A DNA stretch of 32,711 bases, taken from positions 1 through 32,711 of the forward strand of contig CAMNJY010000009.1 of NCBI GenBank assembly GCA_946541745.1, written 5' to 3'. The notes under the pieces are model-generated. The model was not told the DNA's origin. It was given only the letters and a program-made list of their open reading frames with translations, and did no database searches. Source of the stretch: an uncultured Prevotellaceae bacterium. GTDB lineage: Bacteria > Bacteroidota > Bacteroidia > Bacteroidales > Bacteroidaceae. Both the position numbers and the translations under genes were made by a program. Positions 5,452-7,240 of the stretch are shown piece by piece (the first letter of the stretch is position 1; each line of letters begins with the position of its first letter).

Positions 5452-6069
5452 ATGAGAATATTACAAAGTGCTGTGTTCAGGGCCGTCTGTGCCATCGTCA
5501 TCGGCGTGCTGCTCATCAAGTTTCCCGACAACACCGTTAAGGGCATCACCATAGCCATCGGCGTGCTCTTCCTGCTGTCGGGCATCATTTCGTGCGTCAC
5601 CTATTACATGTCTAAGCGCAACGTCAGCGAGTACAAGATTTACGACAACGACGGCAACCTGGTGGCCGGCGAGCAGCCCACCTTCCCCATTGTCGGACTG
5701 GGTAGCACCATCCTGGGACTCATACTGGCCCTCTCGCCCACGGCCTTCGTCTCGGCACTGATGTACATCATCGGGGCTATCCTCATCCTCGGAGCCATCA
5801 ACCAGTTTATGAGCCTCATCAACGGCCGTCGATACGGCCGGATAGGCTTCAGCTATTGGATCATGCCGTCGGTAATACTGCTTACAGGCCTCTATGTCAT
5901 GGTCAAGCCCATGGCCCCGCTGGCGACGGCCATGCTGATTCTGGGCTGGTGTACCCTGCTCTACGGCATAGTGGAACTCATCAACGCCCTCAAGTTCTAC
6001 CGCGACAAGAAGCAGTGGCTACAATCGCACGACCAGCCACAGCTCGACACGTTCGAGGAGGTCAACTGA
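5452..6069 (+). CDS. DUF308/HdeD-family membrane protein
   Basis: Multiple predicted TM helices with repeated hydrophobic ~20-aa segments (IAIGVLFLLSGIISCVTYY, ALMYIIGAILILGAINQFMSL, TAMLILGWCTLLYGIVELINALKFY). Confidence 0.8.
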   Translation: MRILQSAVFRAVCAIVIGVLLIKFPDNTVKGITIAIGVLFLLSGIISCVTYYMSKRNVSEYKIYDNDGNLVAGEQPTFPIVGLGSTILGLILALSPTAFVSALMYIIGAILILGAINQFMSLINGRRYGRIGFSYWIMPSVILLTGLYVMVKPMAPLATAMLILGWCTLLYGIVELINALKFYRDKKQWLQSHDQPQLDTFEEVN

Positions 6070-6156
6070 CCAAAAGGGCTCGATAATTCTGTTAATTTAA
6101 TTAATTTTCCGCTGCCAAAACATACATTTTTCACTGAAAATATTTTTTCATTTCTG

Positions 6157-6243
6157 CCTACACACCTACACTTGCTCTGTAAGCGTTTGATTATAAAGGA
6201 GATTACAATTTTTTGCATACACTTTCCCTACATTCCCCTACAC
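6157..6243. repeat. Irregular cluster of CCTACAC-like heptamers
   Basis: CCTACAC at 6157, 6165 and 6237; CATACAC at 6216; CCTACAT at 6227. Confidence 0.7.
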
Positions 6244-6274
6244 TAATTAGGAAAAACAGATGAGTTTTTCAGTG

Positions 6275-6360
6275 AAAAGGGACTCCCTTTTGCGCAAAAG
6301 GGAGTCCCTTTCGGGCAAAAGGGAGTCCCTTTCGTCACAAACGAGGCTCGTTTAGTGTGA
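6275..6360. repeat. 21-bp-phased array of four odd-centred palindromes
   Basis: AAAAGGGA-C-TCCCTTTT, AAAAGGGA-G-TCCCTTT, AAAAGGGA-G-TCCCTTT, AAACGAG-G-CTCGTTT with centres 6283/6304/6325/6346; units 1+2 form a perfect 36-bp palindrome 6276-6311. Confidence 0.93.
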
Positions 6361-6625
6361 AAGCTTCTGAAAAGTCAAGTTTTAAATGTTGAATTAGCAC
6401 GACCGACCTGCGTATTTGGTCAATAATTGAATATGCTGCATTTAATAATCATCTTTTAGCTCGTTTCTTTCACACGTTTTTCACTACTATTGTCATCGTT
6501 TTTACGGATTTGTTTACAAAACAGCTCACTTCTAACTACACGAGGCTAAAGGCCGATAACTCACTCTAACTCAGAAAGTTGAGCGAATGAGAAACTTGAA
6601 TAAACTGCGAGACAGCATGACGCAG

Positions 6626-7240
6626 TTAAACGCCTGTGACGATGCCCTGGATATAGGTCTTCAGGATATGGATGCCGGTCTTGTTGTCGCCGCCCCAGGG
6701 TATGATGAGGTCGGCAAACTTCTTGGTGGGCTCTATGAACTGCTCGTGCATGGGCTTGAGCACCTTCTCGTAGCGGTCGAGCACCATGTCGACGGTGCGG
6801 CCACGCTCCACGACGTCGCGGCGGATGTTGCGGATGAGGCGCACGTCGTCGTCGGTATCGACAAAAATCTTCAGGTCCATCATGTCGCGCAGCTTCTTGT
6901 AGTGCAGGGCCATGATGCCCTCGATGATGATGACGGGCTTAGGGTCAACGTGGACGGTCTCCTTCTGACGGTTGCTCTCTATATAGGAATAGGTGGGCTG
7001 CTCGACGGCCTCGCCGTTCTTCAGCATCTTAATATGCTCGGTGAGCAACTTCCAGTCGAAGGCGTCGGGATGGTCGAAGTTGATGGCGGCGCGCTCCTCG
7101 GGCGTCATGCCGGTGGTGTCGTTATAGTACGAGTCGAGGGGGATGACGGCGGCACAGTGGGGCGGCAGTGCCTTGGAGATACGCTTGACGACGGTGGTCT
7201 TGCCCGAACCGGTGCCCCCGGCTATTCCGATGATGGTCAT
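6626..7240 (-). CDS. udk: Uridine kinase
   Basis: MTIIGIAGGTGSGKTTVVKRI P-loop; PLDSYYND; NFDHPDAFDW; VIIIEGIMALHYKKLRDMMDLKIFVDTDDDVRLIRNIRRDV. Confidence 0.93.
   Translation of the reverse strand: MTIIGIAGGTGSGKTTVVKRISKALPPHCAAVIPLDSYYNDTTGMTPEERAAINFDHPDAFDWKLLTEHIKMLKNGEAVEQPTYSYIESNRQKETVHVDPKPVIIIEGIMALHYKKLRDMMDLKIFVDTDDDVRLIRNIRRDVVERGRTVDMVLDRYEKVLKPMHEQFIEPTKKFADLIIPWGGDNKTGIHILKTYIQGIVTGV

Follow-up and report, generated by a model that had tools for sequence, protein, structure and literature searches.

The window, the whole stretch of 32,711 nucleotides analysed here from a contig of an uncultured Prevotellaceae bacterium, carries a tandem array of palindromes in the gap between two convergent genes, one coding for a DUF308 protein and the other (udk) for uridine kinase. 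The features of this gap and its borders are:

5452 to 6069, forward strand: DUF308 gene (PF03729), the left convergent neighbour
6128 to 6530, forward strand: truncated copy of a non-coding MITE-like element of about 480 bp with the array; the right terminal inverted repeat (TIR) is absent here
6145 to 6253, forward strand: left TIR with iterated CCTACA motifs, 86% identical to the TIR of the copy in L020
6275 to 6291, centre 6283, unstranded: unit 1, AAAAGGGA-C-TCCCTTTT, that is AAAAGGGACTCCCTTTT
6276 to 6311, unstranded: perfect 36-bp palindrome of units 1 and 2 joined via TTTTGCGCAAAA (from the sequence and the RNA fold)
6297 to 6311, centre 6304, unstranded: unit 2, AAAGGGA-G-TCCCTTT, that is AAAGGGAGTCCCTTT
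6318 to 6332, centre 6325, unstranded: unit 3, AAAGGGA-G-TCCCTTT, likewise AAAGGGAGTCCCTTT
6331 to 6361, unstranded: extended arms of unit 4 (TTCGTCACA...TGTGAA), from the RNA fold, with the same flanks in other copies of the MITE-like element
6339 to 6353, centre 6346, unstranded: unit 4, the B unit, AAACGAG-G-CTCGTTT, that is AAACGAGGCTCGTTT, a recurrent second palindrome
6528 to 6604, unstranded: another dispersed repeat at the place expected for the right TIR
6626 to 7240, reverse strand: udk (PF00485; orthologues), the right convergent neighbour

The sequence-only reading of this DNA had described four perfect odd-centred palindromes in exact 21-bp phase, and they are present as described, with every centre-to-centre step in the window array measuring 21 bp. 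Its further observations, namely that units 1 and 2 form a single perfect 36-bp palindrome and that unit 4 possesses an outer flank, are also borne out, the outer arms of the latter pairing in the RNA fold prediction. A chance origin in shuffled intergenic DNA was considered as well: shuffling almost never gives such palindromes, the gap holding four perfect odd palindromes whose arms measure 7 or more, against a mean of 0.054 and a maximum of two in 2000 dinucleotide shuffles of the intergenic region, none of which contained a palindrome pair spaced by 21 bp. Folded as RNA, the 36-bp palindrome reaches −25.2 kcal/mol (z −6.3), whereas a single unit folds weakly (−5.5 kcal/mol, z −0.9).

At this locus, the array is carried by a MITE-like element with inverted repeats of about 110 bp, the two ends of one copy being 81-84% identical. 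Six copies have both TIRs and two (the window copy and that in L051) have one, and all copies read carry the array together with the B unit. The carrier is short, non-coding, multicopy and bounded by terminal inverted repeats, as is typical of MITEs; no clear target-site duplication was seen in the sequences of the copies, and no parent element was found in plasmids or phages. Among 150 genomes, relatives of the TIRs were found only in G492, where they likewise bound short elements (L278, ~1500-1840; L282, ~1220-1610; L284, ~1230-1610), the centre being a different tandem palindrome, approximately GTTACAAAGGCCTTTGTAAC, with a 22-bp pitch. The truncated right end in the window is abutted by the other dispersed repeat, which is unrelated and about 75 bp long and has further copies at L062 19140-19208, L053 1496-1581, L070 161-233 and L019 5693-5606.

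The gap between DUF308 and udk spans 556 bp here. In the 16 relatives in which DUF308 adjoins udk it measures 8-135 bp (15 cases) or 283 bp (one case), and none of these orthologous gaps contains the array. Given the short, array-free gaps of the relatives, the element is most simply understood as an insertion. A different palindrome cluster (AAAACATCGTTTTACGCGGCGTAAAACGATGTTTT) lies 3' of udk in another species (L121 of G774).

Beyond this locus, the array belongs to a multicopy, non-coding and modular family. The source assembly is a 2.5 Mb, 62% complete draft, 1.61 Mb of which was read for the array and module counts. With up to two mismatches, AAAGGGANTCCCTTT has 156 copies in the genome against three for the reversed control pattern, and the core forms 92 tandem pairs. 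The repeat is dispersed at about 50 or more places, mostly close behind genes, and the 1.61 Mb read contains 45 arrays (100 units), with one to four units per array. Their vocabulary comprises a main unit (GGGASTCCC), the B unit (CGAGSCTCG) and a cap, the A cap (TCCAGGNCCTGGA), each flanked by A and T tracts, with the main units linked by YGNNCR. In the same 1.61 Mb, neighbouring units are 21 bp apart in 50 of 55 instances and 42 bp apart in two, the rest being 19, 22 and 22 bp. The B unit (AAACGAGSCTCGTTT, identical to unit 4) occurs 18 times; in the 16 cases where a main unit is nearby, the distance to it is always exactly 21 bp. Of the 22 copies of the A cap (AAATCCAGGNCCTGGATTT), 19 have a unit in their vicinity, at a distance of 21 or 42 bp in 17 cases and of 63 bp in one. 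A 21-bp phase is, then, common to three unrelated palindromes within this one genome.

Two further observations concern the setting of these arrays. First, many of them are no more than about 350 bp away from the end of a contig, both in the source genome (C18, C25, C36, C47, C50 and C61) and in G585 (C32, C42, C75, C90 and C114); hence, it is probable that short-read assemblies break at them and that the arrays are under-counted. Second, the arrays with the A cap at L019 9532, L022 16182, L046 197 and L053 14253 have a common longer flank (approximately TGTGATTAAAGTTTCG...CTATGCTATGTGTGCTATAG) and constitute a further dispersed element bearing arrays.

This modularity changes the understanding of unit 4, which had been taken for a variant of units 1-3 with both arms altered in compensation. 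As the B unit recurs across the genome in fixed phase, unit 4 is one instance of a module in repeated use rather than a compensated mutant. The accompanying claim that left and right arms change together fails too: the arms of the 100 main units show 46 changed positions, all one-sided and none compensated, which is decay rather than compensation. In G585, G492 and G706, moreover, the self-complementarity of the cores does not exceed that of shuffled arms, and on this comparison, along with the absence of any two-sided change among the 46, within-unit compensatory evolution was rejected. The centre bases of adjacent units in the source genome are complementary in 23 of 50 pairs, as expected by chance.

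The arrays are found near the 3' ends of genes with a bias towards convergent pairs: 12 of the 25 classifiable arrays occupy convergent gaps, whereas gaps free of arrays are convergent in 41 of 339 cases (p=3.3e-5), in a count that rests on heuristic gene calls and in which the window array, though truly in a convergent gap, was scored as codirectional. Since the arrays lengthen their own gaps, this test of gene context is only partly controlled; restricting the comparison to gaps of 150 bp or more leaves the bias in place (p=9e-4). Five of the 25 lie at divergent intergenic sites. A terminator-like hairpin is present at 15 of 24 array-bearing convergent 3' ends (at two of the 24 once the array is masked) and at 22 of 130 array-free ends. 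On both strands, paired units offer a GC hairpin with a T-run behind it, as in a bidirectional terminator, while single units do so weakly; the A-cap region folds no better than its own shuffles (z −1.2). A search against Rfam gave sub-threshold matches only, with nothing at the gathering score, and a known structured RNA from that collection was rejected.

Because the arrays supply terminator-like hairpins at convergent 3' ends, we infer, with about even confidence, that they act as bidirectional 3'-end hairpins or terminators, as part of a lineage-specific, REP/BIME-like family of interspersed palindromes spread in part by a MITE. In such a scenario, a transposase acting in trans would have moved the MITE-like element, whose insertion would have brought the array into the DUF308-udk gap. 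Transcription entering from either side would then yield hairpins, with the A-tract, GC stem and T-tract available on both strands, and these might serve as a bidirectional intrinsic terminator or as a 3'-end protector between the convergent genes. The 21-bp pitch would stem mainly from the way in which a recently expanded repeat grew, by duplication in tandem and replacement of its cores, with a possible contribution from a helical-phase constraint. The earlier suggestion of selection for structure survives in part: a phase maintained across three palindromes and across species, and the strong hairpin predicted for the array, speak for it, and the lack of within-unit compensation speaks against it. 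The same lack of covariation within units counts against a conserved terminator hairpin, which would be expected to covary.

The comparison with other species illuminates what is constant in these arrays. The sequence-only reading had mentioned similar motifs in other Prevotella intergenic regions; the exact motif is not general in the genus, with tandem copies of the core absent from all 399 other genomes of the family and single copies at control level across the genus except in G706. The tandem unit was also absent from GTDB contigs, a search in which the source genome was possibly not included. What other species of the genus do have are arrays of one frame, (AAA-N9-TTT-N6)n, each with its own core. 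Three successive frames of this kind match 59 times in the source genome, 34 times in G585, 22 in G706, 18 in G492 and fewer times elsewhere, whereas the reversed control has zero matches in these genomes; many AT-rich matches of the generic frame that resemble ordinary promoter DNA were set aside. The cores are combinations of GGC/CCC-GGT/ACC-GCC/GGG in G585, CGACGGCCG and its kin in G492, GGCAGTCCC in G706, CGGTSACCG in G576, and the non-palindromic CGCCTTAGA in G534 and GCGGCTCAC in G635; G585 additionally has a cap resembling the A cap (of the AATTCCCAGGCCTGGGAATT type). As the arrays of G585 and G492 and most of those of G706 were retrieved with a 21-bp pattern, the pitch of the relatives is partly ascertained, with the 21-bp pitch of G706 also present in contigs picked by a single unit. 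Beyond isolated matches, the genes neighbouring the arrays are not shared between species. A separate AT-rich stretch of 57 bp, with A/T tracts at steps of about 10 bp (AAAAGTARTG...TATGGCTRTTT), is similar across several species (G430:C9:76450, G556:C11:513486, G479:C115:12988 and G417:C84:10596) and probably represents orthologous upstream DNA that is curved.

The only compensation that did appear is between adjacent units linked through TTTTGCGCAAAA, in a single species, G585. There, neighbours joined by TGCGCA, a self-complementary linker that also joins units 1 and 2 of the window, are reverse complements of each other at 9, 9, 8, 9 and 9 of 9 positions across several different cores, while random pairs reach eight complementary positions in 9% of cases. 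This complementarity across units fits either a selected two-unit hairpin or correction by template switching.

The latter possibility connects to an alternative that we regard as unlikely, namely that the arrays are selfish or neutral minisatellites whose tandem palindromes expand through slippage during replication and through template switching, travel with MITE-like elements and persist harmlessly behind genes. It would account for the one-sided decay of the arms, the restriction of arrays to species with no sharing of loci, the presence of an array in every MITE copy and the perfect complementarity across TGCGCA in G585, which is the expected product of template-switch correction. It does not readily explain why the convergent bias remains in gaps of at least 150 bp, or why one frame turns up in several species around different cores, with a similar A cap in G585.

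A function at the level of DNA is a rather improbable second alternative. Here, a DNA-binding protein acting as a dimer or by wrapping would bind the arrays, recognising A/T tracts at a spacing of two helical turns; candidates are gyrase, a nucleoid protein and a factor of the ParB/Noc kind. The BIMEs of E. coli bind IHF and gyrase, and positive supercoils gather at convergent gene ends, the very sites that these arrays favour. Such a reading draws on the constancy across species of the 21-bp pitch and the AAA/TTT frame, as opposed to hairpin pairing, and on the single phase held by three unrelated palindromes. However, the cores differ wholly between species and partly within one, so that no one sequence-specific protein can read them all; further, the phase in most of the relatives' arrays is partly a product of the 21-bp search pattern, and the non-21 steps (19, 22 and 22) alongside 46 substitutions resemble an ordinary rate of indels.

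A more radical reading, which we consider improbable, is that geometry alone is conserved, with a 9-bp core set between A/T tracts that return at every second helical turn, and that each species rewrites the core in concert across its whole genome. If true, it would define a fast-evolving class of chromosomal sites in the genus, such as would be expected from a co-evolving, species-specific binding protein or mobilising enzyme.

Finally, it is very improbable that the arrays are REP elements of a RAYT/TnpA_REP system, possibly of the Bacteroidetes subclass 2.6, whose REP-like structures are reported to be atypical, lacking GT[AG]G and being more weakly structured (PMC6006769): an array in G706 (L081 6165-6285) does lie beside a Y1-transposase/RAYT-like gene (L081 6296-6952, reverse strand; PF01797, 30.3 bits), with 10 bp between the array and the 3' end of the gene, but the HUH motif of the encoded protein is degenerate (DYFQ), Y1_Tnp (PF01797) is unmatched in the 62%-complete source genome, G492 and G534, the gene is not close to the listed arrays in G585 and G576, and the gene-rich genomes G507, G578, G426, G489, G378, G486 and G429 are free of arrays. 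Apart from that one adjacency, no link to a RAYT/REPtron system was found.

In the open-access literature searched, we found no account of repeats of this kind for the genus. Their fixed pitch and species-private cores offer a natural experiment for separating hairpin function, DNA-shape function and selfish spread, and the arrays could be used both for strain typing and as markers of breakpoints in short-read assemblies.

Among known systems, the arrays are an unusual counterpart of the REP/BIME repeats, to which they are closest in behaviour, while their carrier is closest to BrickBuilt. Like the REP, BIME and REPIN elements of Enterobacteria and Pseudomonas, they are high-copy, short intergenic palindromes in modular clusters, form species-specific families and prefer gene 3' ends and convergent gaps. 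In contrast to them, the arrays have a rigid 21-bp pitch, a constant A/T frame and an exchangeable core. The GTAG- or CGTC-tagged REP super-families bear an unpaired tag at the hairpin foot (PMC3733652), whereas here no such tag is fixed, the linkers being YGNNCR and CGTC being confined to the MITE copies, where it precedes the B unit. Neither was a RAYT flanked by the repeat found, PF01797 having no match in the source genome in its 62%-complete state or in G492 and G534; with foot motif and RAYT both wanting, we do not file the array as a REP.

BrickBuilt of Porphyromonas gingivalis is a MITE with an array of 23-nt direct repeats (PMC4596501), similarly intergenic in all its copies, with TIRs enclosing the short-repeat array and with repeat and flanks partly truncated. 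It differs in having up to 22.8 repeat units, IS5-like TIRs of about 12 nt and no reported palindromic unit (PMC4596501), as against two to three palindromic 21-bp units plus a B unit and TIRs of about 110 bp here, where most arrays lie outside the MITE. The 23-nt repeat and the IS5-type TIR (GAGACCTTTGCA) of BrickBuilt are replaced in our element by a pitch of 21 and another TIR. The intergenic BOX elements of Streptococcus pneumoniae, in which end modules enclose internal modules of varying number, share the modular build, though their sequence is unrelated and they are not known to have a pitch of two helical turns. Bidirectional intrinsic terminators, too, present an A-tract, GC stem and T-tract on both strands at convergent 3' ends; unlike them, the arrays are tandem at a fixed pitch, form a dispersed family and show no compensation within units.
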